Source: Asterias amurensis (Eukaryota; Echinodermata; Asteroidea; Forcipulatida; Asteriidae). Taken from it: a stretch of 64,000 bases of DNA. This document shows positions 7,290 to 56,258 of the stretch, piece by piece. The notes under the pieces are model-generated. The model saw only the letters and a list, made by a program, of their open reading frames with translations. It made no database searches and was not told where the DNA came from. Each line of letters begins with the position of its first letter. Position 1 is the first letter of the stretch. A program made the translations under genes and the position numbers. Where the stretch lies: the NCBI RefSeq assembly GCF_032118995.1, contig NC_092649.1:20149832-20213831 (forward strand). The letters are read 5' to 3'.

Positions 7290-10200
7290 GCTCTGCCTCG
7301 TGTTTAATCCATTCAGGTTGGAGCCTGTTAGGGACTGCCTCATCCCCAGCCACTCAGAAAGAACGCTATCAGTGTTTGTCTCATACCCAAACTAATCATG
7401 TGTGAGCCTGTCGGGGTTTGCCCCAACCTGAACTACTCATATGGGAGCCTGACATGGCCTCCAAATATCTTGGGTGGGAGCTTATCCTTACCACTCTTGT
7501 GGGTAGCATGTTAGTGTCAGCCTCATCTTCAACCACTGAGGTGGTATGCTGTCAGGGTCAGCTTCATTTCCAACATTTCAGGTGAGAGCAAGTCATGGTC
7601 TGCCTCATCCTGACTGTTCATTTAGGAGTCTGTCAGGGTCTGCACCAACCCCAGCTACTTATGTTTGAGCATGTCAATGTATGCCTCGCCATAACAACTC
7701 GTATTGATCATTTCAAGGTCTGGCTCTCCCAACCTCTCATGTGGGAGCCTGTCCCGGTCTGCCTTATTCTTACCACTCATGCAGGATGCATGCTAGTGTC
7801 GGCCCCATCCTCTTCCAGTGCGATACTGTTAGGGTCTGCTTCATTTCCAACAACTCAAGTGAGAGCATGTCAGCGTCTGCCTCATCTTGACCACCCATCT
7901 CAAACCACTGAGTTGGAATGCTGTCAGGGTCTGCTTTCTTCCAAACAACCCAGGTAAGAGCAGGTCAGAGTCTGCCTCTTAAACCATTTAAGTTGGAGCT
8001 TGTAAGGGGGTGCCTCATCCCCAACCTCTCAGATAGAAATCCATCAGTGTCTGTCTCAAACCAAAACCTCGCAGGTGTGACCCTAGAAGTGTCTGCTTTA
8101 ATTCAACCAGTGAGGTTGGAGGCAGTCAGCGTCTGCTTCATCACCAAACAACTCAGGTGGGAGCCTGTCAGGGTCTGGCTCTCCCCAACTTCTGAGGTGG
8201 GAGCAACTTGGAGTCTGCCTCATGTGGAAGCATGTCATGGTCTGCCTCGTCCCCAACCATATCAGGTGGACCCTGTCAGGTTTTGCCTCCACCAAAACTT
8301 CTCAGGTGGGAGCCTGTCTAGGTCTGCCTCATCCTGACCACTCATGAGGGAAGCATGTAAGTGTCAGCCCTATCTCCAACCACTGAGTTGGGATACTGTC
8401 CGGGTCTCCTCCATTTCAAACAACTCAGGGGAGAGCTTGTCGGGAAGCATTTTGGTGTCAGTCTCATCTCCAACCACTGAGGTAAGTGGCTGCCAGGATC
8501 TGCTTCATTCTCAACTTCGCAGATACAACTATGTCTGTGTTTTTCTTGTACTCAAACCACTCCACCACCTGTTTGGGTAACATGTTAGTGTCAGCCTTAT
8601 CGCCAACCACTAAAGGTTGGATGCTGTCAGGGTCTTCTTCATCCTCAGCAGCTCAGGTGAGAGCATAGGGTCTGACCCACCCCAACCACCTATTTGGGAA
8701 GCATGCTAGTGCCACCTTATCAACGACCCCTTGGGTTGGAGGCTGTTTGGGTCTGCTTCATCCCAAGCAACAGATAGGATACTGTGAGGGTCTTCTTGAC
8801 CCCCAACCACTGAGGGAGGTATCTGTCAGGGTATGGATCATCCCCAGCCAATCAGGTGAGGTAAGAGACTGTCAGGGTCTGCTTTGATTCCAACAACTTA
8901 GGTGAAAGCCTGTCAGGTTCGGCCTCTTCCTAACACATACAGGATGGAGCCTTATAACCACTCATACTCATACGGAAGCCTGACACGGTCTGCTTTCTCC
9001 CCAACCACTCAGGTGTGAGTCTGTAGGGGGAAAGTCTCATCCCCAGCCGGTCAGTTGAGAGTCTGTAAGGGTCTGCCTCATCCCAAACCACTCATATGGG
9101 AATCTTGTCAGTGTCGGCCTAAACTCCAACCACTGAGGTAAGAGGCTGTCAGGGTTTGCTTCGATTCCAAAGCCTCAACTGACAGCTTGTTGGGTTCGGC
9201 CTCTTTTTAAACTATTCAGGTTGGAGCCTAAACCATTCTTACGGGACCCTTAACCCTAACAGGGTGTGCTTTCTCCCTAACCACTGAGGTGGGAGTCTGT
9301 CAGGGTCTGCCTATACCCAAACACTTTTGTGGGCCCTGTCAGGTTCTGCTTCTTTGAGGTATGAGCCTGTCTGTGTCTGCCTCATCCTCACTACTCCTTT
9401 AAGAAGCACGCAAGTGTCTGCCCCATCTCCAACCACTGAGTTGGGATGCGGTCAGGGTCTGCTTCATTCCAAACATCTCAGGGGAGAGCTTGTTGGGTTC
9501 TGTTTCATCCCGGTCACTCATGTGGGAAGCAACGGTGTCAGCCTCATCTCCACCCCCTGAGATGCGATGCTGTCAAGGTCTGACTCATTCCCAACCTCTC
9601 AGAGTGTCTTTTTCAGAAGCATGTTTGTGTCAGCCTCATCGCCAATCACTAAGGTGGGATGCTGTCGGGGTCTGCTTCATCCTCGGAAATTTAGGTGAGA
9701 GCATGTTCGGGTGTGCCTCACCTCACCCACCTATTTAGAAAGCATGTGAGTGTCAGCCTGTTAGGGTTGGCCTCATCCCCTAACACCAATTTGTAATGCA
9801 TGATAGTGTCAGCCTCATCCCCAACCACTCATGTGGAAAGAATTTCAGTGTCAGCTTTAACTCCAACCACTCCAACCCGTTCAGGTCTGCTTCTTCCCCA
9901 GGTGGGAATCTGTCTTTGTCTGCCTCATTCCCTACCACTCAGGTCGAACCCTGTTAGGGTATGTCTCATCCCTAGCCACTTAGGTTGCCAGTGAACATGT
10001 GGGGGTCTTCTTTATCCCAATCTACTCAGGTGGGAGTCTGTCTGGGTCTGCTTCTACCCCAACAGTTGATATTGGGTGTTGGTCTGTACTATTCCCTACC
10101 ACCAATTGGGAAACATTTTAGTGTCAGTCTAATAGCCAACCACTAAGGTTGGAAGCTTCATCCCAAGTAACTCAGATGGGATACTGTTAGGGTTTTATTG

Positions 10201-10982
10201 ATCGAAACTACTGAGGTGGGTATCTGTCTGGGTCTGCCCTTATTCTGATCCACTCATGTGGGAAGCATGTCAGTGTCAGCCTCAACTCCAACCACTGAGG
10301 TGAGAGACTGTCATGGTCTGCTTCGTTTCCAACAACCCAGATGACAGCCTGTCAGGTTCGGCTTCTTCCCTAACCATTAGCAGTGTCCGTTTCATCTCCA
10401 ACCACTGGGGTGAGAGTCTGACAGAGTCTGCTTCATCCCCCAAAACTCAGTTGAGAGTATGTCAGGGTCTGCCTCATCTCCAACCACCCAGATAAAATCT
10501 GTCTCGTCTACCTCATACCCAATCACTTTGTTTTGAGAAAACCACTCGGGGCTTGCCTCATCCCAACCATTTAGGTGTGAGCCTTTGAGGGTCTGCCTCA
10601 TCCCCAACAACTCAGATGGGATGCTGTTTTGGTCTTCTTGATCCCCAACCATTGAGGAGGTTATCTGTCAGGGTCTGCCTCATCAAAGAATTCCAGTGTC
10701 AGCCTCAAGTCCAACCACTCAGGTGAGCGCCTGTCAGGTTCGGGCTCCTCCCAAACCATTCAGGTTGGAGCCTAAACCATAGGGGGCCTGACAAGGTATG
10801 CTTCCTCCAAACCACTCAGGTGGGAGTTTGTCAGAGTCTGCCTCTCCTTAACCACTCATGTGGAAGCATCTCGTTGTCTGCCTCATTTTGGAGCATGTCA
10901 GGGTCCGCCTCATTCCCAAACATGTCACATGGGCCCTGTAAGGTTCCACCTCTCCCCAAACCTCTAAGGTGGGAGCCTGTAC
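7290..10982. repeat. 41-bp minisatellite, block 2
   Basis: Same family as 4395-6290: runs of GGTGGGAGCCTGTCAGGGTCT and CTGCCTCATCCCCAACCACTCA at a period of about 41 bp, with many substitutions, small indels and some fused or shortened units. A third scrap of about 1.5 units lies at 12030-12100. Long open frames within it are fortuitous for the reason given for block 1. Confidence 0.9.
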
Positions 10983-11241
10983 ACCCATATACCCACCTAA
11001 AAAGAAAAATAGAAAAAAGTACCGTTAAACTTTCCCACCAAGTGTGGTCTCCCTTTGACGAAAGGATAACAACAGTCCAATGTTGGAAACTAATGTACAA
11101 AGTGAACCATGATGTATCATACTGTATTTATAAAAAAAAAATCATTGATGGGTCCTCAGCACTTTGAAATCACCCGCAAGTGCTTGACTCATTAAATTTG
11201 TTGGTTTAACATATTTCTTATCTGTAAACTTGACCTTTCAG

Positions 11242-11307: not shown

Positions 11308-11441
11308 GTGAGCAACGATTGTGTACATTACAATCATCAAGACCTCTTAGCTGTTCATCTAGCTAATTCGGTGAATGAACAAGCAAAGTGATAGGGACCA
11401 CTATGAACAACCCAACCAAGTCCTTACCACTATGTTTTTAA

Positions 11442-11814
11442 AGGAACACGTTGCCTTGGATCGGTCGAGTTGGTCTTTGAAAAGCATTTGTTATAAAATG
11501 TATATAGGTAGAAAGATGCTGTGAAAGTAGAATACAATGATCCACACAAACATGGCTCGAAATTGTACGGTTTTCCTTTTACCTCGTCGACTAACACAGT
11601 CGGCCATTTATGGGAGTCAAATTGTTGACTTCCATAAATGGCCGACCGTGTTAGTTCGCACAGTAAAAGGAAAACCACGCAATTTTGAGGCAAACTTGTG
11701 TGGATCATTGTATTCTACTTTTAAAACATCTTTCCAACCATATGCATTTTATAACAAACGGTTAAAAACGCTTTTTTATAGACCAACTTGTCCAATCCAA
11801 GGCAACGTGTTCCT
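11442..11814. mobile_element. hairpin MITE family B, copy 2
   Basis: TTAA at 11438-11441 and 11815-11818. Full-length inverted repeat with AGGAACACGTTGCCTTGGAT ends and central GGGAGTCAAATTGTTGACTTCC. Sits in the intron between exons b and c. Confidence 0.85.
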
Positions 11815-12261
11815 TTAATAAGATGGATTTGAAACTTTGCAGTGTGGAAGTAGAGAGGTTTGTGGTAACACCATGTGAATATATCTCTTTTGAGTAGTGT
11901 TGGTTCTGAAGGCGATCACTGAGTATACTGATCGAATTATGAGTTATCACCCGTTCTTTTCAGAACCAAAACTACTGAATATATATATTCAAATGGTGCT
12001 ACCGCAGACATCTCTACCTGTACAAAAAAATAAGGGTCTGCCTCATCCCCCACCACTCAGATGAGAGCCTGTCAGGGTCTGGCTCATCCCACATCACTAT
12101 TTGCTCTCATAGTTAATTGTTATAATTACATCTTTATTTTTTTATTTACTTTTGGCGTTAGGGTCTTGAACTCAAACCTTGAGTGGTATTTTGTTGATTT
12201 TGAAAAATGAATAATAATCATATACTTATGTCAATGCATTCATTCGACTATACTTTTTCAG

Positions 12262-14988: not shown

Positions 14989-16225
14989 TGCGGGAGCCAG
15001 TGGGTCACCCGTGTGGTCTTTGGGCGGCACAGGTGATTGGAACCAGCCAAAGCAACCGACAGGTACCAGATCACCGCCTTGCAACACATAAACATATAGT
15101 AGGGGTCAGGGTACTTGACGGCTTAGTGCCGTGACACGATATTCAAAATGGCCACCAGCCATGCTTGGTTTATGTTAACACCGTGGATGTATTACGACCA
15201 TTGTTTCATGTGTTTTAATATCTCTAGAGGTAAGCTTTATCATGTAATGTTATTAAGCTCATAATGTAGAATAGGAATAGGCCTCACGGAAGCAATGTAA
15301 ACACCTATAAGGTCATAACATGGGTAATTATGTGTCATTTTGTTTTGCCTTCACGCATGTAAACAACAACACTTAAAAGCGGGCACTAGAAGTAGATGTA
15401 CTGTTAACGTTTGGCCATTGTGGGTCATTGTGTTGTCAGTCAATGGCGACTAGCTGTCAATCAAATGTAACAATTAACTTTCTGTTTAGAGTATTATGGG
15501 TTACATCACCTTAACCACTTGTAGTGTTCCGCACGTCAATGCGTGAATAGTTTAGTATCTCCCCGTTTCTAGAATGCATGTAACGTGAGGCAGTGGACAA
15601 TGCTCGTAGTTTAATATCCAAAATATGCAAAATAGTTGATATCATAAAAACTTATTTAGAGAGCTATTGATATAGTATAGAACACTGTGCGAATCGTATA
15701 TCATTGCAGTTCTTGAAAAGAGGTAAAGTTTTACTCAAATATTAAAAGACTTCGAGCCTGAAACATTTTATTATTTATGCATCTTAAAGCACACAAATTT
15801 GTGCGTATTTCTTTCATTATTCTCTTGCAACTGCAATACCTAGTTTAGCCTAAGTTTTTCGATGTCCAGTGCTGTATTTTAAATTAAGCACCCATAGGCA
15901 TTTTTATACAGTTCGTGTTACTTCTAATGTTAAAGTACTTACTATGGTTAATTGTCTTAGTGGTATTTTTTGTATTATGTGTACTGTTTTCCACGAATAA
16001 ACTATTATTTCAACAGACATTAATAAACAGGTTCTTCGTGATACATTTTCCCCCTCCTGCCTCTGCCATCCACCCACATCAGAATGACAACATGTCACAA
16101 AGTTTATTTTTACGTAATCTTTGCCGTTGCGACACACAAAATGTCTTCACTGTATCCTCCCAAAATAGTTTTAAATTATTTAATTGGGAACATTATTTTT
16201 AAAATGCATGGGGAAAAACTGGCAT

Positions 16226-16490
16226 TTCTTAGAGCTTCTTAACGGTTGATTTTGTGCTTAGTGTGCGATTTCCATTCGTTCAGTGATAACCGCAAGCATA
16301 ACAGGCATGCTAGCCTTCTGGTGCTTACTGCACGAAACTTAATCAATTAATAATGCAAAATCCATGTTGAACACGCAAAACGGCCGCCTAACGTTCTTGC
16401 TAACCCTTGAAATACACTCACCATTTAGGAAAGATTTCTGCTACAGTAAGCACAAAAACCGTTAAGCAGCGCTATGAAATTTAGCCATGG
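16226..16490. mobile_element. MITE family D copy inserted in left arm only
   Basis: Carries the family's paired motifs AGAGCTTCTTAACGG..TTTGTGCTTA and TAAGCACAAAAACCGTTAAG..GCGCTATGAAATTTAG. Related copies are at 34216-34402 and 63620-63896. There is no counterpart at the mirrored site in the right arm, so it inserted after the arms formed. Confidence 0.6.
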
Positions 16491-16549
16491 TCGTCAACAA
16501 GTCTCACTGACTGCCCCTCTCCAATGCAATGCATTATCCCCGACGGTAT

Positions 16550-16715
16550 CACAGCGAGTACTACCCACCCCCGCCACCCAGCCCCGTCACACTCTACCCC
16601 GCCACCCTACTCAACCACCCGACCCCACTACTACCCTACCACGCTATCCTACCCCGCCACCCTACCCAGCCACCCAACCTACACCACCGTACCCCGCAAC
16701 CCTCACCTGCAACAA
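16550..16715. repeat. C-rich minisatellite, about 13 bp, left arm
   Basis: Imperfect repeats of CCACCCTACCCAG and variants. Complementary GTGGCTGGGTAGG repeats stand at the mirrored place, 30480-30650. Confidence 0.75.
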
Positions 16716-17189
16716 CCCTTAATGTATTCCCATCAGTTGTCAAATCAACTACAGCGTGTCTTAAACTCGAATACTTTTTAAGTCCAAACCCTAGAATACG
16801 ATGTTTGTTTACTTATTGTCCATATCTACAGCGTGTGCTTTCTACTCAAATATATTTTAAGTCAGAACCAAAGACCCCCCCCCCCCCCGGTCTGCTCTAA
16901 TAACCTACTCCCGGTTACGGCGTATGCCTTCTATAATACTCGCAAATTATTTACAAAATTATAAAGTAAAAAGCAATGATTTCCCTATGCCATAGTACCC
17001 TGCCGTGTACCCTATTTCTTAACTAAACTAAGTTGTTATACCCGTGGCCTGTAGCGCGTGCGTTCAATTCATATTTATTTTGATTAAGGCCGAACCATAA
17101 TTGAGTCCACCATTTGCCCGTTTCCTTAGTGAACTATTGTTGCATACCTACAGCGTGTGACTTCCACTTGAATTATTTTCAAAGTCCGA

Positions 17190-17815
17190 ACCAAAGAATC
17201 CCCCGTATGCCTATAATATTTCCTATACACCATGTGCCCTGACTTTCCCATACTGAATTTCCCATACCATTGCATCCTGCGTAAAAGAATTCCACTAGCA
17301 AATTATATGCGAGGTATAAAGCACTGTAATTCCATGCCATAGTATCCTGTTTAAAGAATTCCACAAAGCACCGGATTTCCGATACCATAGCATCCTGTGT
17401 AAAGAATTCCACTCGCAAATTATAATTATATTAAGTACAAAGCACCGGCTTTCCCATACCATAATCATCCTGCGTAAAGAATTCCACTCGCAAATTATAA
17501 TATATTAAGTAAAAAGCACTGATTTTCCCATACCATAGTATCCTGTGTAAAGAATTCCACTCGCAAATTATATACCAAGTATAAAGCACTGACTTTCCCC
17601 TACCATAGCATCATGTGTAAAGAATTCCATTCGCAAATTTTATATTAAGTACTAAGCACTGACTTTCCCATAGCATAGCATTCAAAGATATCCACTCGCA
17701 AATTATATACCAAGTATAAAGCATCGACTTTCCCATACCATAGCATCCTGTGTAAAGAATTCCATTATATACTAAGTGTAAAGCACTGTATTTCCGTGCC
17801 ATAGTATCCTGTGTA
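17190..17815. repeat. 70-bp tandem repeat, left arm
   Basis: About eight to nine units built on CCATAGCATCCTGTGTAAAG, AATTCCACTCGCAAATTATA, and AAGTATAAAGCACTGACTTT. Mirrored by 29405-29880. Its core shares CTATGG.AT.GGGAAA and TTTGCGAGTGGAA with the spacers between some tRNA-like units, so the two tandem components are related. Confidence 0.8.
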
Positions 17816-17864
17816 AAGTATGAACCGAAGGTTTATCAAGTCCAAAATGCGTATTTTAATGGGG

Positions 17865-17945
17865 GGACCCACCTAGGTGTCGTGGGTAGGTGTCGGTCTC
17901 CGAAGCGAAAGGTCCCCGGTTCGAACCCCGGCAGCGGCGCCCCTC
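17865..17945 (+). repeat. outermost tRNA-like unit, left arm, plus strand
   Basis: Contains CGGTCTCCGAAGCGAAAGG followed by a strong B box, CCCCGGTTCGAACCCCGG. It points opposite to the rest of the left array. The same unit, complemented, is at 29280-29365. It is followed by a conserved block to 18055 that is also mirrored. There is no full acceptor stem, so it is not called a functional tRNA. Confidence 0.6.
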
Positions 17946-18139
17946 GATACGAGCCACGGTGGTGGCAGCTTGGTGAGCGACCGACCGCGAAGTCCCGACT
18001 CACCGCGCAGTGGCACCCACCGCTCCCACTCGCTTAGAAAAGAAACTTAAAACTTAAAACGAACCTATGAACTTTTTAAAAATGAATTTTTAAATTTTAC
18101 GTAAAAAGACTTTTCTTAAAAGGCCTCGAATATTTTCGA

Positions 18140-20535
18140 TAACGGGATTCGATCCCGGGACCTTTCGGTCCAGAGCCCAGAGTCCTTCCACTGGACCACT
18201 GCTCCTTCTTACTAAATGTGCGTTCGAGTTTAATTTTAAACCTTCGTATGAACAATTTTAAATTAAAACGGAATTAAAAGAACACCCATCAGGATTCGAA
18301 CCCGAGACCTTTCGGTCTAGAGTCCGGAGCCCTTCCACTGGGCCACTGCTCCTTCTTACTAATTATGCGTTCGAGTTTAATTTTAAACCTTCGAATGAAC
18401 AATTTTAAATCAAAACAGAATTAAAAGAACACCCATCAGGATTCGAACCAAGACCTTTCGGTCTAGAGTCCGGAGCCCTTCCACTGGGCCACTGGTCCTT
18501 CTTACCAAATATGCGTTCGAGTTTAATTTTAAACCTTCGTATGAACAAATTTTAAACCAAAAAGGAATTAAAAACACACCTATCAGGATTCGAACCCGAG
18601 ACCTTCTGGTATAGAGTCCGAAGCCCTTCCACTGGGCCACTTTTACTTTTACTTGATTTGCGTTCGAGTTTAATTTTAAACCTTTGTTTGAACAATGTTA
18701 AATCAAAACATTGTAAAAGAACATGCATGACTCGAACCCAGTACCTTTGGCTATGAAGCCCGGAGCCCTTCCACTAGACCACTGTTCCTCTTACTAAAGA
18801 CGCGTTCGAGTTTAATTTTAAACATGGGGTTGAGCAGCTTCAAACCAAAACGTAGTTAAAAAAACAGGCACGATTCGAACCCGGTACTTTTGTGTATGGA
18901 GTCCGGAGCCCTTCAACTGGGCCACTTCTACTGTTACTTAATTTGCTTTCGAGTTTAGAATGAGCAATTTTAAATCAAAAAGTAGGAATAGAACACACAT
19001 GATTCGAACTCGGTACCTTTCGGTGTAGGGTCGGGAGCCCATCCACTGGGCCACTACTACTCTTACTTTATTTGCTTTTTAGTTTAATTATAACCCATAG
19101 AATGAGAAATTTTTGATCATAATATATCATAAAGCGTATGATATCCACTCGCAAAGTACTAAGTATAAAGCAAGGATTTCCCTATGTCATAGGGTTAAGC
19201 GTAAACCAATTGGCTCAAGCGTAGAAAAAAGAACATCCATGATTCGAACCCGGTACCTTTCGGTGTAGGGTCGGGAGCCCTTCCACTGGGCCACTAGTAC
19301 TCTTACTTGATGCCCGTTCGAATTTAATTATGAACCTTAGAATAGGCAATTTTAAACCAAAATGTTTTCAAGCGTATGCTTTCCACGCGCAACGTGTTAA
19401 CTATTCCATAGGGTGAATCGTTAACCGATTTGGCTTAAGCATAGAAAAAAGAACACCCATGATTTGAACCCCGTACCTTTTGGTTGGAAGTCCGGAGCCC
19501 TTCGACTGACCCACTGCTCTTGTTACTAAGTTCGAGTTTAACTTAAAACTATAGGTTGAATAATTACTTTAAATTAACATGCAGTAAAAGGACATCCATG
19601 ATTCGAACGCAGTACCCTTGGGCATGGAGCCCAGAGCCCTTCCACTAGGCCGCAACTCCTTTTTCTTGATTTGCGTTCGAGATTAATTATAAACCTTAGA
19701 ATGAATAACTTTAAATAAAAACGTAGTAAAACAACATCCACGATTCGAACCCCGTACCTTGTGGTATGAGGCCCAGAGCCATGCCATTGTACCACCGATC
19801 CTCTTAGTTAAAAAGGCTCTCGGGTTTATCTCTAAACCTTAGGAGAAACAACTTTAAATCAAAACGTAGTATAGCGTATGCCTTCCACTCTCAAAGGATA
19901 AGGTAAATCATTAGGATTTCCCTATGCTATGGGGTCCTGTTTAAACTAATGGTCTTGCGTAGAAAAAACGTCACCCGGGTTCGAACCCAGAACCTTTTGG
20001 TTCAGAATCCGTCGCTCTTCCAACTAAGCCACTACTCTTCTCACTTCGGTTGTGTTCGAGTTTAATTATAAACCTTAGAATGAACAACATAATATCAAAA
20101 CGTATATAAATAGCGTGTGCCTTCCCTTCGCATGTTTTTGAGTGTAAAGCAAGTATTTCCCTATTATATGCTTTGGTGAACTGTGTACACCAATAATCTT
20201 GAGGGTAGAAAAAGAACACAGCCGGGCTCGAACCCAGTACCTTTGGGTTCAGACTCCGAAGCCCTTCCACTCGACCACAACTGTTCTCGATTGAAATTGT
20301 GTTCGAGTTTAATTTTAAACCTTAGAATGAACAACTTATTAAACAAAAACAATTATTTTAGCGTATTATTTCTTTCCACTCGCAAATTATTGAAGTGTGA
20401 AGCAGAGGTTTCCCTCTGCCATAGGGTACTGCTTCATATAATGACCTTAAGCGAAGAAAGAACACCCGGGCTCGAACCCAGTACCTTTGGGTTCAGAATC
20501 CGAAGCCCTTCCACTGGGCTACCGCTCCTCTGCCT
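18140..20535 (-). repeat. array of 14 tRNA-like units, left arm
   Basis: Minus-strand units at about 18140, 18291, 18432, 18581, 18724, 18868, 18996, 19233, 19458, 19597, 19738, 19974, 20222 and 20464 (plus-strand left edges, each about 70 nt). Each shows an A-box-like GTGGCCCAGTGGAAGG and a B box GGTTCGAATC, 35-40 nt apart, as in type 2 pol III promoters. In several, TTCGG..CCGAA can form a five-pair anticodon-type stem with an eight-base loop. No unit has a matching 7-bp acceptor stem. Spacing is about 140-150 bp, or about 220-245 bp where a CTATGGCATAGGG module is inserted. tRNA-derived, not functional tRNA genes, by my reading. Confidence 0.8.
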
Positions 20536-20594
20536 AATTTGCATATTTATCTTGTGTAGTATCTTAGAATGGAAACACCGACCTGAACATCAAA

Positions 20595-22983
20595 ACCTTG
20601 GTCGTCTACCTTGGCAACTATTTGAGACATTGGCTGTATTCGGATATAACGATGCCTCAATAATATTTGGGACCCGTCCCATTGTTCCAGCAACCTGCAA
20701 CTTGGAGACTGTCTTCTACACATAAAGAACTTCCTTTGGTCAAATTTTGAGGCACATCGGAGAGATAAAGTTTTCGAGGGTGAAAAAACGTCAAGTTATA
20801 CCCCTTGTCATTTTTTCCAGAATCGGCCGAAAACTTTTGTTTTCCAAATCGCCTAAAATTTCATATACAGATGTAAAAAGGTGCGAGGATCACAAAAATC
20901 TTGGTTTTAGTCCTCTACGGTGTCAACTTTTTGAGATATTGGCTAAATTTGGATATACCGACGGTTCAAAATTAAGATTAAAATGAATAATTAAGACCCA
21001 TCCAATTGTTCCAGCAACCTGTAACTTGGAGACTGTCTTCTACACATAAAGAACTTCCTTTGGTCAAATTTTGAGGCACATCGGAGAGAGAAAGTTTTTG
21101 AGGGTGAAAAAAAGTCAAGTTATACCCCTTGTCGTTTTTTCCAAAACCGGCCGAAAACTGTTGTTTTCCAAAACGCCTAAAATTTTATATACATATGTAA
21201 AAAGGTGCGAGGATCACAAAAATCTTGGTTTTAGTCCTCTACGGTGTCAACTTTTTGAGATATTGGCTAAATTTGGATATACCGACGGTTCAAAATTAAG
21301 ATTAAAATGAATAATTAAGACCCATCCAATTGTTCCAGCAACCTGTAACTTGGAGACTGTCTTCTACACATAAAGAACTTCCTTTGGTCAAATTTTGAGG
21401 CACATCGGAGAGATAAAGTTTTCGAGGGTGAAAAAACGTCAAGTTATACCCCTTGTCGTTTTTCCAAAACCGGCCGAAAACTGTTGTTTTCCAAAACGCC
21501 TAAAATTTTATATACATATGTAAAAAGGTGCGAGGATCACAAAAATCTTGGTTTTAGTCCTCTACGGTGTCAACTTTTTGAGATATTGGCTAAATTCGGA
21601 TATAACGACGGTTCAAAATTAAGATTAAAATGAATAATTAAGACCCATCCAATTGTTCCAGCAACCTGTAACTTGGAGAATGTCTTCTACACATAAAGAA
21701 CTTCCTTTGGTCAAATTTTGAGGCACATCGGAGAGATAAAGTTTTTGAGGGTGAAAAAAAGTCAAGTTATACCCCTTGTCGTTTTTTCCAAAACCGGCCG
21801 AAAACTGTTGTTTTCCAAAACGCCTAAAATTTTATATACATATGTAAAAAGGTGCGAGGATCACAAAAATCTTGGTTTTAGTCCTCTACGGTGTCAACTT
21901 TTTGAGATATTGGCTAAATTTGGATATACCGACGGTTCAAAATTAAGATTAAAATGAATAATTAAGACCCATCCAATTGTTCCAGCAACCTGTAACTTGG
22001 AGACTGTCTTCTACACATAAAGAACTTCCTTTGGTCAAATTTTGAGGCACATCGGAGAGATAAAGTTTTCGAGGGTGAAAAAACGTCAAGTTATACCCCT
22101 TGTCGTTTTTCCAAAACCGGCCGAAAACTGTTGTTTTCCAAAACGCCTAAAATTTTATATACATATGTAAAAAGGTGCGAGGATCACAAAAATCTTGGTT
22201 TTAGTCCTCTACGGTGTCAACTTTTTGAGATATTGGCTAAATTCGGATATAACGACGGTTCAAAATTAAGATTAAAATAAATAATTAAGACCCATCCAAT
22301 TGTTCCAGCAACCTGTAACTTGGAGAATGTCTTCTACACTTAAAGAACTTCCTTTGGTCAAATCTTGAGGCACATCGGAGAGATAAAGTTTTCGAGGGTG
22401 AAAAAAAGTCAAGTTATACCCCTTGTCGTTTTTTCCAGAATCGGCCGAAAACTGTTGTTTTCCAAATCGCCTAAAATTTCATATACAGATGTAAAAAGGT
22501 GCGAGGATCACAAAAATCTTGGTTTTAGTCCTCTACGGTGTCAACTTTTTGAGATATTGGCTAAATTTGGATATACCGACGGTTCAAAATTAAGATTAAA
22601 ATGAATAATTAAGACCCATCCAATTGTTCCAGCAACCTGTAACTTGGAGACTGTCTTCTACACATAAAGAACTTCCTTTGGTCAAATTTTGAGGCACATC
22701 GGAGAGATAAAGTTTTCGAGGGTGAAAAAACGTCAAGTTATACCCCTTGTCGTTTTTTTCCAGAATCGGCCGAACACTTTTGTTTTCCAAATCGCCTAAA
22801 ATTTCACATACAGATGTAAAAAGGTGCGAGAATCACAAAAATCTTGGTTTTAGTCCTCTACGGTGTCAACTTTTTGAGATATTGGCTAAATTCGGATATA
22901 ACGACGGTCCAAAATTAAGATTAAAATGAATAATTAAGACCCATCCAATTGTTCCAGCAACCTGTAACTTGGAGACTGTCTTT
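20595..22983. repeat. 323-bp satellite array with 647-bp higher-order period
   Basis: A degenerate partial unit (20595-20746), then units starting near 20747, 21071, 21395, 21718, 22042, 22365 and 22689. Units alternate in type, so 21071-21717 and 21718-22364 are near-identical dimers. Four units keep a 79-codon frame opened by TTG rather than ATG (RHIGE..KFGYTDGSKLRLK); the others differ by T-tract length (5 or 7 instead of 6 near GTCGTTTTTTCC) and are out of frame. I regard the frame as a by-product of repeat identity. The array stops where the LINE begins. Confidence 0.9.
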
Positions 22984-25900
22984 ATTGATTTGATTTCTAT
23001 GTAAGAAGAGCACTGGCCCTGTGCAAAGATTATGGACTCTGAAATACCTTTTTGATGAACGCCATTTTCTATGAGAGTTAGAGCTATGTCTGCACTTTAC
23101 TGGGAAGAAGAAGCAGAAGACGTGTTTTGTTTATCGAGAACACCCCGTCAAAATGACTGGCTCTGTGCACGCCGACAATCTCTTCATCGGTTGCACCTCC
23201 ACACAAGCTCCAGCAATTTTTGGTATTTTGTTGCCTAAGTAAACTTGGTGAATTCCATTACTTGTCCAGTAGACATTTGTCTGTCAGTGATCATCCTCGT
23301 TCATTAGTCGTGGAAATCTACGCCTCCATTTCTGCAAAATTCTGAGATTTTCATCCGGTTTCTCCCTTGGGATTCAGGCGAGCTCAGTAGTATAGCCCTT
23401 GCAGTGGTTTTGATCTCCTTTGTACTCCAACTACTGTCATATGCATGGCTGACTCTGCTTTGTTCTCCATTGTGCTGATGCTTTTCTTACCTGTAGTCAT
23501 GGCTGCAACTACAACAAACTCCTACAGCAAAGCCGATCTACTGGAATTGTTTCCTTCAGTGAAAGCCAGGGTACCCCTGCATATCCACCACAGACTGAAA
23601 GAACTTGGAATTGGTGTGGCTAGACCGACGAAAAGGGGCCGCAGATCATGGTCTAAAAGGCAGAAACCAATTCCTTTTTTGTCTCGTTGTGACCAACCTT
23701 GTGAGTTTCACCCTGATTACCAGCCAAGTCATAACGGTGCTCATCTCACCAACCTTGTACATATACCACCTACTTCTTATACTGAGCAGAAAACGGTCCC
23801 TACAAAGTTCGGTTTATGGAATGCACGATCAATAAAACCTAAAATCACTGTCATGTGTGATCTCGTCATCTCTAATTCCATTGACATTTTCTGTATTACT
23901 GAAACATGGTTATCTGGAGATAATCGTGACCACCGTGCAGTCGCTGATCTGACTTCTACGTTACCTAACTACCAAGTTCATCACATCCCTCGTATAGACC
24001 GTGCCGGTGGTGGAGTTTGTGTACTTCTTCGAGAGAGCTTTGATGTTCATAGAAACGAAGGTAGATCATTTGAATCATTTGAACATATTGATTTATCCAT
24101 CAACGCCCGCTCGAAAACTCCTCTTCGTCTCATTGTCATCTACCGGCCCCAGAGACTTGCTAGTGGCCGTTTGACAGGTCCAGCTTTCTTCACTGAATTT
24201 TCTACCCTTTTAGAATCGGTTGTCTCTGAGCCAGGGTATGTTTTGATATCTGGGGACTTCAATTTCCATGTTGATGACCAAGCAAACCGCGAAGCTGCGA
24301 TCTTTCTTGATCTCATCGACTCATTCAACCTCGAGCAGCATGTTACTGGTCCCACACACTGCGACGGTCATACATTGGACCTCCTCTTAACTCGCTCAAC
24401 AGATGACGCAATTTCTCATGTCAGCACTACGAATTACTTGCCCTCCGATCACGCTGCCGTAAAATGCTTGCTTAACATTAATCGCCCGGATCATGTGAAA
24501 AGAGAGATCAGGCTACGTGAACTCCGCAAGATTGATATTGAGGCTTTTCGCCAAGATGTTCTGGCCTCACCAATATCTACAACTCCAGCCACTGACCTAG
24601 ACTCTCTTGTTCATCAATATGATACAAGTCTGGGAGATCTTCTGGACAAGCATGCCCCTCAAATCTGGCGTACCATTTCATCATGCCCTCATGCTCCCTG
24701 GTACAATGAAGATATTCGCAAAGCAAAGAGACAACTGCGTAAGTGCGAACGCAGGTGGATGTCTTCCAGATTGATGGTTCACAAACAACTACTTAAAGAG
24801 CAGAGCTATCACTACAATCAACTTATAACCGAGACTAAATCGGAATATCACAGGAACCAACTGAAGGACTGTGACTCCCGCCAACTTTTTCGCAAGGTTG
24901 ACAAATTATGCACACCAGCCTCTTCAAAAACCCTCCCGTCGGCCGATTTGTCATCTGAACCTCTTGTTGAACGTTTCTCTAAGTTCTTCGTCCAGAAAAC
25001 GCGGAACATAACTACAGAACTTGACGAAACTCCTGAGCTCGTAGTTTCTAAACCAGTATTCGACTCATGCATGACTACCTTTCATCAGTTTGAACCACTT
25101 TCACAGAACTCAGTGAGAAACATCATTGCTGCTTCCCCCTCTTCTACATCCAGGCTTGATCCGATTCCCACATGGATTTTGAAGATGTGTTTAGACGAGC
25201 TCGTTCCTATCATCACGAATATCGTCAATCTTTCTCTGCTGCATGGTCATTTCCCAGAAGCAATGAAACATGCCCACATCACTCCCTTGCTTAAGAAACC
25301 TAACCTGGACACAGAACAACTCAAGAACTACAGGCCCATTGCAAACCTGTCATTTCTTTCAAAGACAATAGAACGTGCAGCCGCTGCCCAACTTCAAAAT
25401 TACCTCACCGACAACAATCTTCATGGACACTTCCAGTCCGCTTACAGAAAACATCATAGTGTTGAGACTGCCCTTCTACGTGTTCAAAACGACCTACTCC
25501 TGGCAGCCGATAAGGGGCAAGAAGCTATTCTTGTCCTCCTTGATTATTCATCTGCCTTCGACACGATCGACCATAACATCATGCTTCAGCGTCTTACGAA
25601 CAGATACGGCGTGTCCGGTCACGCTATCGGTTGGTTTGAATCCTATCTAGAAAATCGCACCCAGAGTGTCGTCATCAATGGTGCTCTTTCGAACCCTCAA
25701 GTGCCATTCTGCGGTGTTCCTCAAGGATCTGTTTTGGGACCGTTATGTTTCACTCTCTACACATCCCCCCTCGAAGACATCATCGAGGGCCATGATATCA
25801 ATAGAATGTTGTACGCCGACGACACCCAGGTATACGTCATCACTAACGAGCAAGATCGCCCAACTACCATCTCACAGCTAGAACACTGCCTTAATGACGT

Positions 25901-26757
25901 ACGAGCATGGTCTGTCGCCAACAAACTAAAATTGAATGAAGAGAAGACCGAGGTCATTCACATTACATCTCGCTTCAGAAGCTCTACCACACTTTCACCT
26001 ATCTCAATTGGCAGTTTTCCAATAGAACCGGTTCAGAGAGTACGAGATCTTGGTGTCACTTTTCAGAACGATCTTCGAACGGACATCCATGTGAAAAATA
26101 TCTGCAAATCTTCGTACCTCGCATTACACAAAATTGGACAAATTCGCAATCTTCTTGACAAATCCACCACGGAAAAACTGGTTCACGCCTTCATTACATC
26201 CCGCCTTGATTTTTGTAATAGTCTTCTTCTCGGTCTACCTGACTCCGGAATCTCCAAACTTCAGCGAGTTCAGAACTCAGCAGCCAGATTGGTCACACGA
26301 TCCAAAACCTGTGACCACATTTCACCTATCTTCTCGGACTTGCACTGGCTTCCGGTTAGACAACGGATTGCTTACAAAACCCTTCTTCTGACATACAGCT
26401 GTATCCATGGCCACGCACCTACATACTTGCAAGAACTTGTTCACAAATACCAGCCTTCTCGAAATCTCCGCTCTCAATCACAATCTCTACTTGCCTGTTC
26501 ATCCGCTTCTACTAAGTCTTACGGCCAGCGTGCATTTTCTACGTCTTCTCCTACTCTTTGGAACAAACTCCCCCGCAACATCAAAGACGCTAAAACTCTG
26601 GCTAAATTCAAACGCCTTCTCAAATCTCACTTGTTAAACTCCAACTAGTTTTGTCTGTTTTTTTTTTTCTTTCTGACTTTGTACAGCGCATTGGGACTCC
26701 GTGTGTAATGCGCTTTAAAAGAACGGTTTATTATTATTATTATTGTTTCTGTTATAC
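22984..26757 (+). mobile_element. near-complete CR1/L2-type LINE
   Basis: The 5' leader 22984-23444 follows directly on a broken satellite unit (..GGAGACTGTCTT). One long ORF is followed by a 3' tail with TTGTACAGCGCATTGGGACTC and GTAATGCGCTTTAAAAGAAC, ending in TTATTATTATTATTATTG, the microsatellite-type end typical of this superfamily. It sits in the spacer of the giant inverted repeat, next to the right arm. No clear target-site duplication was found, which is usual for the group. The uninterrupted ORF implies a recent insertion. Confidence 0.85.
23445..26648 (+). CDS. LINE polyprotein: AP endonuclease and reverse transcriptase
   Basis: A 1067-residue open frame. Residues 1-120: N-terminal region with a hydrophobic stretch (about 5-21) and a basic patch (64-76). 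About 122-350: exonuclease/endonuclease/phosphatase-type endonuclease that nicks target DNA, with WNARS (125 on), ITETWL, SGDFN (D271), and LPSDHA near its end. About 570-870: reverse transcriptase with NYRPIANLSFLSK (628), SSAFDTIDH (F705), GVPQGSVLGP (P759) and LYADDTQVY (YADD 790-793, catalytic Asp pair). The C-terminal region has LHWLPVRQRIAYKTLLL (H967), usual for CR1/L2 relatives. All expected catalytic motifs are present and there is no internal stop. No separate ORF1 is seen upstream. The ATG was chosen as the first in frame after the leader; translation might start further in. Confidence 0.9.
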   Translation: MADSALFSIVLMLFLPVVMAATTTNSYSKADLLELFPSVKARVPLHIHHRLKELGIGVARPTKRGRRSWSKRQKPIPFLSRCDQPCEFHPDYQPSHNGAHLTNLVHIPPTSYTEQKTVPTKFGLWNARSIKPKITVMCDLVISNSIDIFCITETWLSGDNRDHRAVADLTSTLPNYQVHHIPRIDRAGGGVCVLLRESFDVHRNEGRSFESFEHIDLSINARSKTPLRLIVIYRPQRLASGRLTGPAFFTEFSTLLESVVSEPGYVLISGDFNFHVDDQANREAAIFLDLIDSFNLEQHVTGPTHCDGHTLDLLLTRSTDDAISHVSTTNYLPSDHAAVKCLLNINRPDHVKREIRLRELRKIDIEAFRQDVLASPISTTPATDLDSLVHQYDTSLGDLLDKHAPQIWRTISSCPHAPWYNEDIRKAKRQLRKCERRWMSSRLMVHKQLLKEQSYHYNQLITETKSEYHRNQLKDCDSRQLFRKVDKLCTPASSKTLPSADLSSEPLVERFSKFFVQKTRNITTELDETPELVVSKPVFDSCMTTFHQFEPLSQNSVRNIIAASPSSTSRLDPIPTWILKMCLDELVPIITNIVNLSLLHGHFPEAMKHAHITPLLKKPNLDTEQLKNYRPIANLSFLSKTIERAAAAQLQNYLTDNNLHGHFQSAYRKHHSVETALLRVQNDLLLAADKGQEAILVLLDYSSAFDTIDHNIMLQRLTNRYGVSGHAIGWFESYLENRTQSVVINGALSNPQVPFCGVPQGSVLGPLCFTLYTSPLEDIIEGHDINRMLYADDTQVYVITNEQDRPTTISQLEHCLNDVRAWSVANKLKLNEEKTEVIHITSRFRSSTTLSPISIGSFPIEPVQRVRDLGVTFQNDLRTDIHVKNICKSSYLALHKIGQIRNLLDKSTTEKLVHAFITSRLDFCNSLLLGLPDSGISKLQRVQNSAARLVTRSKTCDHISPIFSDLHWLPVRQRIAYKTLLLTYSCIHGHAPTYLQELVHKYQPSRNLRSQSQSLLACSSASTKSYGQRAFSTSSPTLWNKLPRNIKDAKTLAKFKRLLKSHLLNSN

Positions 26758-26819
26758 TAACACTCAACTGAATTAATTCATTCTTAGACTCTATACTACA
26801 AAAATATGCAAATTAGGCA

Positions 26820-29085
26820 GAGGAGCAGTAGCCCAGTGGAAGGGCTTCGGATTCTGAACCCAAAGGTATTGGGTTCGAGCCCGGGTGTTCTTTCTTCGCT
26901 TAAGGCCATTATATGAAGCAGTACCCTATGGCAGAGGGGAAACCTCTGCTTCACACTTCAATAATTTGCGAGTCGAAAAAAATATATCTTAAAATAAATG
27001 GTTTATTTTTTAAAATAAGTTGTTCATTCTAAGGTTTAAAATTAAACTCGAACACAATTTCAATCCAGAAGAGTAGTGGTCGAGTGGAAGAGGTTCGGAT
27101 TCTGAACCCAAAGGTACCGGGTTCGAGCCCGGCTGTGTTCTTTTTCTACCCTCAAGAATATTGGTCTTCACAATACCCCAAAGCATAGAGAAAGTCTTGC
27201 TTTATACTCAAAAAGTGCGAAGGGAAGGCATACACTATTTATATTCGTTTTGATTCCATGTTGTTCATGCTAAAGTTTATAATTAAACTCGAACACGATC
27301 TGAGTGTTAAGAGTCGTGGCTCAGTGGAAGAGCGACGGACTCGGAACCAAAGGGTACTTGGTTCGAACCCCGGTAACTTATTTTTCTACGCATGAGACCA
27401 TTAGTTGAAACAGTACCCTATGGCAAAGGGAAATCTTTGCTTTACACTTGATAATTTGCGAGTGGAAGGCATACGCTGTATTACGTTTTGGTGTATAGTT
27501 GTTCATTCTAAGGTTTATAGTTAAACTCGACCGCAAATTTAGTAAAATGAGTTGTGGCCCAGTGGAAGGACTGCGGACCCCATACCCAAAGGTACCGGGT
27601 TCGAATCATCTGTGTTCTTTTTACTACGTTTTCATTTCAAGTTGTTTATTCAAGGGTTTATTATTAACTCGAACGCAAATTGAGTAACAGGGGCAGTGGC
27701 CAAGTGGAAGGGCTCCGGACTCCATACCAAATGGTACGGGGTTCGAATCCTGGATGTTTTTTCGATGCTGAAGTAAAAATGGTTTACGGTTCTTCCTATG
27801 GCATAGGGAAATCCTTGCTTTGTACTTTGCGAGTGGAAGGCATATGCTACAATACGTTTTGATTTATAATTGCTCGTTCTAAGGTTTATAATTAAACTCG
27901 AACGCAATTGAAGTAATAGTAATAGTGGCCCAGTGGAAGGGCTCCTGACCCTACACCAAAACGTACCGGGTTCGAGTCATGGTTGTTGTTTTTCTTACGA
28001 TTTAATTTAAAGTTGTTCATTCTAAGGTTTATAATTATTCACGAAAGAATATCAATTAAAAGGAGTTGTGGTCCAGTGGAAAGGCTCCGGGCTAGTAACC
28101 AAAAGGTACGGAGTTCGAATCTCGGGTGTTCTTTTTTCCATGCTTAAGCCAAATGCTTTTACGCTTCAACCTATGGCATAGGGAAATCCTTGCTTTGTAC
28201 TTTGCGAGTGGAAGGCATATGCTACAATACGTTTTGATTTATAATTGCTCGTTCTAAGGTTTATAATTAAACTCGAACGCAATTGAAGTAATAGTAGTAG
28301 TGGCCCAGTGGAAGGGCTCCCGACCCTACACCAAAAGGTAGCGGGTTCGAGTCATGGTTGTTCTTTTTCTTACGATTTGATTTAAAGTTGTTCATTCTAA
28401 GGTTTATAATTATTCTCGAAAGAATATCAATTAAAAGGAGTTGTGGTCCAGTGGAAGGGCTCCGGGCTAGTTACCGAAAGGTACCGGGTTCGAATCATGT
28501 GTGTTCCTTTACTACTTTTTTGTGTGTAAACGTTGTTAATTCTAATGTATACAATTACATTCGAACGCAAATTGAGTAAGAGGAGCAGTGGCCCAGTGGA
28601 AGTGCTCTTGGCTGTATACCCAAAGGTACTGAGTTCGAATCATGGGTGATCTTTTACTTCGTTTTGATTTACAATTGTTCATTCGAAGGTTTAAGATTAA
28701 ACTCGAACGCATATTTAGTAAGAAGGAGCAGTGGCCCAGTGGAAGGGCTTCGGACTCTATACCGAAAGGTCTCGGGTTCGAATCCTGCTGGGTGTCCTTT
28801 TAATTCCGTTTTGATTTAAAATTGTTCATTTGAAGGTTTAAAATTAAACTCGAACGCATATTTAGTAAGAAGGAGCAGTGGTCCATTGGAAGGGCTCCGG
28901 ACTCTAGACCGAAAGGTACCGGGTTCGAATCATGGGTGTTCTTTTAATTCCGTTTTGATTTAAAATTGTTCATACGAAGGTTTAAAATTAAACTCGAACG
29001 CACATTTAGTAAGAAGGAGCAGTGGTCCAGTGGAAGGGCTCTGGGCTCTGGACCGAAAGGTCCCGGGATCGAATCCCGTTACCGA
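26820..29085 (+). repeat. array of 13 tRNA-like units, right arm
   Basis: Plus-strand units start near 26820, 27068, 27309, 27549, 27690, 27922, 28062, 28294, 28437, 28581, 28724, 28874 and 29017. Typical motifs: AGTGGCCCAGTGGAAGGGCT, then TTCGGACTCTATACCGAAAG (five-pair stem TTCGG/CCGAA), then GGTACCGGGTTCGAATC. The unit at 26820 matches the left-arm unit at 20464 almost base for base, including its flank, and the order of unit variants runs in parallel in the two arms. As on the left, acceptor stems do not pair. Confidence 0.8.
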
Positions 29086-29279
29086 AAACATTCGAGGCCT
29101 TTAAAGAAAAGTCTTTTACTATAAATTTTAAAAATTCATTTTTAAAAAGTTCATAGGTTCGTTTTAAGTTTTAAGTTTCTTTTCTAAGCGAGTGGGAGCG
29201 GTGGGTGCCACTGCGCGGTGAGTCGAGACTTCGCGGTCGGTCACTCACCAAGCTGCCACCACCGTGGCTCGTATCGAGG

Positions 29280-29365
29280 GGCGCTGCCATCACCAGGGTT
29301 CGAACCGGGGACCTTTCGCTTCGGAGACCGACACCTTCCCACGACACCTAGGTGGGTCCCCCCAT
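29280..29365 (-). repeat. outermost tRNA-like unit, right arm, minus strand
   Basis: Complement of the unit at 17865-17945: AGGGTTCGAACCGGGGACC and CTTTCGCTTCGGAGACCGAC. The adjacent conserved block at about 29155-29280 mirrors 17945-18055. Confidence 0.6.
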
Positions 29366-29404
29366 TAAAATACGCATTTTGGACTTGATAAACCTTCGGT
29401 TCAT

Positions 29405-29880
29405 ACTTTACACAGGATACTATGGCATGGAAATACAGTGCTTTGTACTTAGTATATAATTTGCGAGTGGAATTCTTTACACAGGATGCTATGGTATGGG
29501 AAAGTCAGTGCTTTATACTTGGTATATAATTTGCGAGTGGAATTCTTTACACAGGATGCTATGGTACGGGGAAGTCAGTGCTTTGTACTTGGTATATAAT
29601 TTGCGAGTGGAATTCTTTACACAGGATGCTATGGTATGGGAAAGTCAGTGCTTTATACTTGGTATATAATTTGCGAGTGGAATTCTTTACACAGGATGAT
29701 ATGTGGTATGGGAAAGTCAATGCTTTATACTTCGTATTTAATTTGCGAGTGGATATCTTTGGATGCTATGGTATGGGAAAGTCAGTGCTTTGTACTTGGT
29801 ATATAATTTGCGAGTGGAATTCTTTACACAGGATGCTATGGTATGGGAAAGTCAGTGCTTTATACTTGGCACTTATGAAT
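29405..29880. repeat. 70-bp tandem repeat, right arm
   Basis: Six to seven units of TTTACACAGGATGCTATGG, TATGGGAAAGTCAGTGCTTT and TACTTGGTATATAATTTGCG. Some adjacent units are almost identical, pointing to recent homogenisation. The repeated WYII/EWNSLH peptide read from it is an artefact of the repeat. Confidence 0.8.
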
Positions 29881-30479
29881 AGGTAAAAGGGGACTCTTTG
29901 GTTCGGACTTAGAAATAAATTTGAGTTGAAGGCACACGCTGTAGGTATGGACCATTATATAACTTAGGAAACATAGGCATACAGGGGACTCTTTAGTTTG
30001 GACTTAGAAAAATAATTAAGTGGAAGACATACGCTGTAGGTATAGACCATTAAGGAAATAATTAAAGTGGAAGACACACGCTGTAGGTATAGACCATTAG
30101 TTAAGTTAGCAAACATATAGGCATATTGGGGTACTCTATGGTTCGGATTTAAAAGTAAATTTAGAAACTTGGGAAACAGGGTACGCAGCAGGGTAATATT
30201 GCATAGGGAAATCCTTGCTTTATACTTGAAAATAAGCTTGTAAATAATTTGCGAGTATATGGTAGGCATACGCTGTACCCGGGAGTAGGTTAACAGGGCA
30301 GCAGACAGGGGAGTCTTTGGTTCTGACTTGAACAATATTCCACAATAAAGCACAATCTTTGGTTTGGACTTGACAAGTATTTGAGTTTAAGACGCACGCT
30401 GTAGTTATAGAAAATTAGTTCACATAGGAAACTGATGGGAATGTTTTATTTGACAACTAATGGGATAACATTTTGGGGT

Positions 30480-30650
30480 TGGTTGCAGGTGAGGGTTGCA
30501 GGTGAGGGTTGCGTTGGACGGGTCGCGGGGTATGGTGGTTTAGGTTGGGTGGCTGGGTAGAGTGGCTGGGTAGGGTAGCTGAGTAGGGTGGCTGGGTCGG
30601 GGGTTGGGTGGCTGGGTCGGGTGGCTGGGTAGGGTGGTTAGTCTTGTTCT
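30480..30650. repeat. G-rich minisatellite, right arm
   Basis: Repeats of GGTGGCTGGGTAG/GGTGGCTGGGTCGG, complementary to 16550-16715. G-runs separated by short loops on the plus strand make quadruplex formation possible (inference). Confidence 0.75.
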
Positions 30651-30847
30651 GATGTGGGTAAGCAGGAGAGGGAAAAGATACAAAGAAGAACATTTTATTG
30701 ATGTCTTTCAAATAAATAGTTTATTTGTGGAAAACAGTATACATAATACATACCACTCAGACAGTTAACCATAGCAAGTAGTCTAATATTACAAAGTTAC
30801 ACGAACTTTTTTGAAGAGATTATGGTTTTTATTTCAATTGCATCCAA

Positions 30848-31155
30848 GGCACTGGACATTAACAAATCTGTGAAAACTCGGTCTCAATTAGTCATCGCAG
30901 TTGCAAGAGAATAATGAAAAAACATACGCACAAATTTGTGTGCTTTCAGATGCGTAAATAATAAAAAGGCTTCTGGCTTGAAGTCTTTTAATATTTGTGA
31001 GTGAAACACTACCTCTTTTTGAAGAATTGTTGCTACAGAGGAAGCCGATTCTTACCATGTTATATACTATCAACAACTCTCTGTTGCTCGTTACTAAGTT
31101 ATAAGTTTTTATAATATAAATTATTTTGAGTAATTACCAGTAGTGTCAAATGCCT
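30848..31155. mobile_element. MITE family A copy in right arm
   Basis: AAGGCACTGGACATTAACAA to GTGTCAAATGCC, ending at TTAA 31156-31159. Part of it has a counterpart in the left arm (15740-15850), so this insertion predates the arm duplication or was copied between arms. Confidence 0.65.
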
Positions 31156-31850
31156 TTAAGGTTGATTGTCATTTTGTTTGACGAAACCACATGTTTGATA
31201 AAAATAAGCAATTAACAACAGCTCACGTTTACATGCATTCTAGAAACGGGTAGGCCCAGGCACAGGCCAACACATTGATACATGTACTAAACTATTCACG
31301 CATTGGCGTGGAAATACACTGGAACACAACAAGTGGTTAAGGATGATGTAACCCATAATACTCTTAACAGAATTGATTGATTGTTACATTTGACTGACAG
31401 CTAGTCGCCATTGACTGACAACACAATGACCCACAATGGGCCAAGCTACAGTACAGCTACTTCCGGGGCCCGTTTACAGTGCCGATGTTTACATGCATGA
31501 AGGCAAAACTAAATTGCCACAAAATATGACATTCTAGGTGTTTAAATGCCTCCCATGAGGCCTATCCTATTCTACATTATGAACTTAGTTTAATTACATG
31601 ATAAAGCTTACCTCTAGATACATTAAATCACATCAAAAGATCGTAGTAAATCCACGGTGTTCACATAAAACAAGCATGGCTGGTGGCCATTTTGAATATC
31701 GTGTCACGGCATCAGGCCGTCGAGTACCCATACCCCTACTATTATGTTTATATTGTGATCAACGGTAGTCTGGTTCCTGTCGTTTACTTTGGCTGGTTCC
31801 AATCACCCGTGCCCGTTACAGACCACAGGGGTTCGCAACTGGCTCCCGCA

Positions 31851-50770: not shown

Positions 50771-50799
50771 TGTAAAACATTACATGGTGCTATGTTTAA

Positions 50800-51170: not shown

Positions 51171-51362
51171 TTAAAGAGTAGATCTCATTGTTCAAATGTA
51201 GTTCGCACATACCTTGAAGAAAATACTGTATGATTAAGGGCTTTGAGTTGCCTTTGGATATATATTTTTATTCTTACAGTTTCCACCATAAGTAAAAGTA
51301 ACATACTCCTTACACTCATAAAGCGTTTCAATTGTTAATGAAAAAATGCAAGATTGACTTAC

Positions 51363-56250: not shown

Positions 56251-56258
56251 ACATTTAA

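Follow-up and report, generated by a model that had tools for sequence, protein, structure and literature searches.

Palindromes maintained by gene conversion are known from mammalian Y chromosomes, and the short interspersed nuclear elements (SINEs) of the kind that gave rise to satellites in squamate reptiles are tRNA-related. Those SINE-derived satellites, tandem repeats that have undergone modest amplification and are reported as likely tied to subtelomeric regions (PMC10702118), are by composition the nearest known kind to the locus described here. The nearest in anatomy are the centromeres and mating-locus barriers of fission yeast, where, in the outline given by two reports, a central domain lies between inverted repeats with tRNA genes or B boxes (PMC6538654, PMC2040200). 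Foldback/Galileo elements are also described as having long inverted repeats, with internal tandem repeats in some subfamilies (PMC3573991). We have analyzed a stretch of 64,000 nucleotides of the starfish Asterias amurensis (C2:20149832-20213831, hereafter the window), in which an inverted repeat of 16.9 kb carries two mirrored arrays of tRNA-like units on either side of a spacer. Related structures form a family in this genome, with a recurring architecture, a joint inside the satellite in one copy and a slower divergence of the A and B boxes. We think it rather probable that the family is a segmentally duplicated macro-repeat made of degenerate tRNA-like RNA polymerase III (pol III) units and satellite, of which the window holds a palindromic form, and that its promoters are partly under selection.

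Such an element is a new composite of known kinds, namely tRNA-like tandem repeats, satellite and the palindromes of segmental duplications. The squamate satellites repeat portions of SINEs, whereas the starfish unit corresponds to a whole pol III-like gene with an upstream motif and a T-run, and a first look through the genome turned up only 59 candidates for the outer-unit block, which carries the opposite-strand unit beyond each array. When a dispersed SINE origin was checked, the array and outer-block matches listed fell mostly at sites of the element, with a few partial outer-block ones on C7, C9 and C10. With the Y palindromes the starfish ones share mirror arms, patchwork identity and a spacer, but here the arms are repeats shared by several chromosomes, with their joint inside a private satellite. 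No published account of the family was found among the papers listed from the open-licence PMC literature, surveyed mostly by titles and the starts of abstracts.

The mirrored arms that an earlier note had read from the letters of this DNA were recovered by self-BLASTN of the window, as an anti-diagonal running from 14989/31850 inward to 20571/26779. Besides the end blocks (14989-15557 / 31850-31285, 82.5%), the paired segments were 15710-16060 / 31026-30662 (78%), 16852-17018 / 30338-30173 (81%), 17365-18957 / 29861-28268 (87.5%) and 19592-20571 / 27757-26779 (84%). Global alignment of the two arms gave an identity of 80.4% (3929 of 4888 aligned positions), against 42.4% for a control in which the left arm was aligned to an unrelated stretch as long as the right one. 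The identity was patchy, reaching 92-99% per 100-base block at 17800-18500 and 98% at 20400-20500, and being mostly 70-87% over the middle units of the arrays. The note had also counted 27 units plus two reversed ones around a spacer of satellite and long interspersed nuclear element (LINE), and this description stood. An A-box/B-box scan (46 rows, 29 kept; the 17 dropped were one duplicate, opposite-strand matches within the arrays and matches in the LINE or outside the structure) returned 14 units on the minus strand in the left array and 13 on the plus strand in the right one, all facing outward, with one opposite-strand unit beyond each array, and the spacer contains 7.1 copies of a 324-bp satellite and a LINE with an intact frame of 1067 amino acids (aa). 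In the tree of the 27 units the cross-arm pairs 1-1, 2-2, 3-3 and the outermost 14-13 were starred, and some middle units of the right arm grouped with each other. Since units at matching positions of the arms pair in this tree, the array predates the inverted duplication. An assembly artefact was thought unlikely, judging from the assembly alone, because the arms of the window differ by about 20% and the layout recurs at other sites. The published assembly is reported to be based on HiFi libraries with fragments of about 15 kb (PMC10625585), so that one HiFi read may not cross the 16.9 kb.

We searched the 491.5-Mb A. amurensis assembly (23 contigs) for relatives of this structure. A genome-wide search with the end block, a kind of check already proposed in the earlier note, gave at least 40 matches (the best 40 of 42 candidates were scored), and the outer-unit block gave at least 43 (best 40 of 59). 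Among the matches listed, the end-block, outer-unit, array and satellite probes converge on the same places, and a manual tally yielded about 27 related sites on five chromosomes, C2 (6), C4 (2), C10 (13), C14 (1) and C16 (5); this list is incomplete, with the other genome probes scoring the best 20 of 78, 40 of 528, 37 of 72 and 7 of 60 candidates. Naming each site by contig and position in Mb, six are palindromes (the window, C2 20.47, C10 2.78, C10 3.94, C16 0.60 and C16 1.89), one is rearranged (C10 5.22) and about 20 are apparently one-armed, which means one end block per site among the matches listed, with the inner side checked over about 5 kb at each of two sites, C10 1.50 and C2 28.1. 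Fourteen other sites, covered by 20 fetched stretches, showed the same succession of parts, from satellite through array, opposite unit and 70-bp repeats to end block, though with gaps; one of the stretches, L023, is without the outer unit. Across the window and the fetched loci, the outer-unit block (29096-29402 in the window) is present in 21 arms, and its opposite-strand unit fits the model of the array units in all 21 (E<=0.009). Over the window and 22 loci this model gave 257 matches at E<=0.1, of which 225 were strong (E<=8e-10). The upstream motif with up to two mismatches occurs at 838 places in the genome, of which 100 were listed, against 5 for the reversed control, and its exact matches (59 of 59, counted manually) all fall at the 27 sites.

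Parts of the element were also found alone. All satellite matches listed (best 40 of 59 candidates scored) belong to C2, C4, C10 or C16 and coincide with sites of the element, apart from those at two places that have the satellite alone, and relics with only the end block or only the satellite appear at further places among the matches listed. Four places showed, as far as seen, arrays only: C2 22.2 and C2 22.6, from the search that scored 20 of 78 candidates, C6 19.56, met only in the one that scored 7 of 60, and C2 21.68, known only through a pattern search with the upstream motif; the right end of this last array, C2 22.6 and C6 19.56 lay outside the closer view. The C2 21.68 array changes strand, and its units too face outward from one place. 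The arrays at C2:22.20, C2:22.61 and C6:19.56 Mb gave nearly equal series of match scores and are probably recent copies of one another. At C10 5.22 a strong unit is located outside the end block (L022:2393-2473), and at C16 2.58 two outer units on one strand are separated by about 5 kb (C16:2580221 and 2585517).

Several comparisons point to conservation of the pol III promoter parts. Parsimony on the 27 units of the window gave P 0.017 for the A box and P 0.0008 for the B box. In a larger set of 218 units, chosen by their boxes in a selection where the upstream motif and the T-run played no part, the P value was 0.0012 for the upstream motif (-28 to -15), third of 88 contiguous windows, and 0.0025 for the T-run, sixth of 103, both being roughly as conserved as the boxes. 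When the upstream motif was the sole criterion of choice (254 units), the values were 0.0002 for the A box, 0.036 for the B box and 0.026 for the T-run. Among 49 pairs of sister copies, A box, B box and terminator together accumulated 45 mismatches in 1443 positions versus 308 in 5725 elsewhere in the unit (P 0.0002), with 13/539 in the A box (P 0.0015) and 15/490 in the B box (P 0.025), that is, both boxes change at about half the rate of the remainder of the unit. These data suggest that the A box, the B box and the T-run are under measurable but partial constraint.

As tRNAs the units are poor. Only the two innermost units of the window passed the Rfam tRNA threshold, both being called tRNA-Gln by ARAGORN, and two further Rfam matches were found in 14 other loci (L009-L022). 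Cloverleaf pairing in the 27 units was 66.1% versus 65.8% after shuffling (209 of 500 shuffles as high), and a functional tRNA gene cluster was not supported by these data. For 144 distinct units out of the best 150 of the 257 matches, in an alignment fitted to the structure, the figures were 67.2 and 66.5% (17 of 500 as high). The D stem, which overlaps the A box, is 97% paired and the anticodon stem 39-41%; the anticodon arm has been lost in most units.

Some of the results weigh against a macro-repeat with selected promoters. The constraint is partial (odds ratio 0.57 in the sister pairs), the terminator by itself was not significant in those 49 pairs (P 0.31), and a similar picture could result from gene conversion or uneven mutation. 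Comparison of the two arms of the window gave no clear slowing of the unit bodies relative to the sequence around them (P 0.85 and 0.48), with P 0.08 and 0.045 in two overlapping stretches. In the 144 units, changes on both sides of the cloverleaf stems numbered 78 versus 57 after shuffling (0 of 500 as high) and the covariation score was reached by 2 of 500, and some constraint at the RNA level may act on the units; sliding the stem partner by one column in this structure-fitted alignment gave 91 such changes. Only 206 of the 838 upstream-motif matches fall in the fetched loci. The case for segmental duplication is drawn from the variable borders described below, and the two arms of the window do not pair in the end-block tree. 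A cluster of dead tRNA pseudogenes, in which tandem tRNA copies and satellite spread passively, without function, and the conservation of the boxes is residual, would fit the behaviour of the unit bodies, the 25 of 27 window units below the Rfam threshold, the poorly paired anticodon stem and a species reported as rich in tRNA-like sequence (14,926 tRNAscan hits; PMC10625585). However, the slower change of the box columns is seen in recent sister pairs, and the upstream motif and T-run are conserved in a set selected without them, and we consider this explanation possible but on the unlikely side.

Returning to the macro-repeat that we favour, its palindromes appear to be built from a simpler form. 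At the five other palindromes the arms are 76-98% alike by segment (segments >250 bp), and no arm-to-arm segment above this length was obtained at C10 5.22. The orientation of the satellite with respect to the arm is equal in 17 of 18 one-armed sites (manual tally; C10 1.50 deviates), and by this rule the satellite core of the window is in the orientation native to its left arm. Each palindrome has one main satellite block running in one direction, so that only one of its arms is in the native orientation. In C16 0.60 the satellite is on the plus strand up to base 10680 of the joined locus and on the minus strand from base 10682, i.e., a head-to-head joint. The basic element looks one-armed, and the palindromes look secondary, joined via the satellite. 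At 22 borders, the shared sequence ends between about 0.05 kb and at least 2.3 kb past the end block; the arms of C10 3.94 have about 1.05 kb in common there (97%), C10 0.75 and C16 1.46 at least 2.3 kb (87%), and the left flank of the window gave only weak matches, at two C2 sites. The end-block and outer-unit trees separate a C2 group from a second one made up of C4, C10 and C16. C16 0.60 and C16 1.89 each have their two arms paired in the end-block tree, and the arms of C10 2.78 and 3.94 mix; because its own arms are unpaired there, the palindrome of the window may be an old, copied one. We infer segmental duplication of one-armed and palindromic copies together with repeated joining or arm-to-arm conversion, two processes that are not separable here.

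The earlier note had offered two readings of the window, a giant foldback element and a chromosomal palindrome amplifying tRNA-like modules. The second came close, the structure probably being a macro-repeat dispersed in the genome, here in palindromic form. The long double-stranded RNA or cruciforms that the note thought such a structure could give are speculative. The first reading, a giant non-autonomous DNA transposon of foldback type, has in its favour the long inverted arms full of tandem repeats and the many copies, and in these respects the locus does resemble Foldback/Galileo. But the comparison of copies by which the ends were to be defined gave no common outer terminus, no target-site duplication was evident by eye in the flanks of the window or at the 22 aligned borders, which are not fixed, and most copies are one-armed in appearance. 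The pairing of arms within a locus at C16 0.60 and C16 1.89 in the end-block tree, though absent in the window, also speaks against such an element, and we regard it as very improbable.

The anatomy suggests how the family could have arisen. A basic one-armed element, made of a 324-bp satellite block, a tandem tRNA-like array, the opposite-strand unit, 70-bp repeats and an end block, would have spread through segmental duplications of variable extent. Palindromes would form by head-to-head joining of two arms through the satellite, and recombination between the joined arms would then homogenise parts of them. TFIIIC would bind the units, and pol III would transcribe them, at least in part, into short RNAs, mostly other than tRNAs; a chromatin-boundary role might be possible by analogy with fission yeast. 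The family offers a natural collection of arrayed candidate pol III promoters whose boxes are partly kept despite the decay of the anticodon stem, and with it one could ask directly whether animal chromosomes are organised by TFIIIC sites independently of tRNA production. Palindromes may also arise repeatedly through the satellite, one joint being readable almost to the base.

The spacing of the sites bears on the boundary idea. We used site midpoints read from the match lists and left out the 21.68-Mb array, about 310 kb from its neighbour. With the arms of one palindrome merged, no pair of sites in the list lies between about 17 and 214 kb apart. The 13 sites of C10 have gaps of 220-702 kb (coefficient of variation, CV, 0.37), more even than random (P 0.0003), and on C2 the first five sites follow one another at 258-333 kb (P 0.0013). 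The full set of 11 C2 places known at that point is clustered (CV 1.32, P 0.96), with P 0.064 for the smallest gap, and for C16 P was 0.02 or 0.38 depending on one end-only relic, i.e., the values for C2 and C16 hinge on the choice of counted sites. Even spacing is suggestive only. A tandem duplication of 300 kb as its cause was weakly probed with the left flank of the window, which was weakly matched at two C2 sites; the stretch 57600-60400 is uninformative on this point because it is a dispersed repeat (at least 71 matches, 40 of 866 candidates scored, one of them 97% identical at C10:5475751). The domains of A. amurensis are reported to have a median of 190 kb, and the public Hi-C data of the same source (PMC13317027) would allow part of the test for a chromosome-organising role without new data.

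Arrays of A and B boxes might recruit TFIIIC and set domain boundaries, cluster the sites or shield the satellite core. The core sitting between inverted tRNA-like arrays, the boxes conserved where the anticodon stem is not, the even spacing on C10 and the fission yeast parallels of centromeric tRNA clusters and mating-locus B-box repeats (PMC2040200, PMC6538654) would all agree with such a chromatin-domain element. The clustering on C2, where the site list is incomplete, the uneven C16 series with the end-only relic, the full sites on five contigs only among the matches listed, and the persistence of some cloverleaf covariation speak against it, and we hold it to be doubtful. In its widest form, a lineage-specific animal element with hundreds of degenerate tRNA-like pol III promoters, divergent around a private satellite and placed hundreds of kb apart, would act as a TFIIIC-bound domain organiser or satellite shield, a counterpart of the fission yeast tRNA and B-box barriers; we put this forward as an analogy with a small chance of being right. 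The tRNA genes of fission yeast centromeres are intact and there is one centromere per chromosome, whereas the starfish units are degenerate and occur at up to 13 sites per chromosome. A regional centromere with tRNA flanks would have one site per chromosome, which does not agree with 13 sites on C10 and with full sites seen only on C2, C4, C10, C14 and C16 among the matches listed.

Table 1. Components of the inverted repeat in the window (positions count from the first base of the window; TRF, Tandem Repeats Finder; ORF, open reading frame).
Feature	Position	Strand	Basis
Left end block	14989..15557		82.5% to 31850-31285
Left 13-bp minisatellite	16561..16702		TRF 16563-16702; inverted match to right arm
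Left 70-bp repeats	17252..17821		TRF; inverted matches within 29403-29869
Left outer opposite-strand unit, tRNA-like head of ~300-bp block	17867..17947	+	Box scan; unit-model match 17875-17947, 26 bits
Left array, 14 tRNA-like units	18126..20529	-	Innermost 20458-20528 above Rfam tRNA threshold
324-bp satellite core	20598..22982	+	TRF 20671-22982, 7.1 copies; partial first copy starts 20598
LINE	22983..26750	+	Borders approximate, by eye; ORF 23445-26648, 1067 aa
Right array, 13 tRNA-like units	26821..29095	+	Innermost 26822-26892 above Rfam tRNA threshold
Right outer opposite-strand unit	29277..29357	-	In block 29096-29402; model match 29277-29349, 32 bits
Right 70-bp repeats	29403..29869		TRF 29406-29869
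Right 13-bp minisatellite	30481..30639		TRF
Right end block	31285..31850		Inverted match to left end block

The intact frame of the LINE codes for an endonuclease and a reverse transcriptase; its top match is 56% identical and unnamed, and the first named one comes from Amphiura filiformis. This LINE had no match in the 14 other loci compared, and thus no link to the structure was found. The end block contains long stretches identical between the arms (15130-15170 / 31670-31715) and motifs that we take to resemble promoter elements (CCAAT, CAAAATGGCC), and may itself be a pol II promoter.

Outside the inverted repeat, the window holds a degenerate minisatellite of several kb with units of about 41 bp (4400-11200), four related short dispersed repeats detected by self-BLAST, three of them self-complementary (11435-11818, 50795-51175, 55239-55554 and 56254-56616), and two open frames that by eye resemble fragments of reverse transcriptase (1694-2245 and 44485-45111). 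Elsewhere in the assembly, C23 carries a mitochondrial COX1 of 447 aa, identical to that of A. amurensis, and a nuclear contig has two mitochondrial COX1 copies separated by about 16.4 kb (C5:658874 and C5:675294), perhaps tandem inserts of nearly whole mitochondrial genomes or an assembly error.

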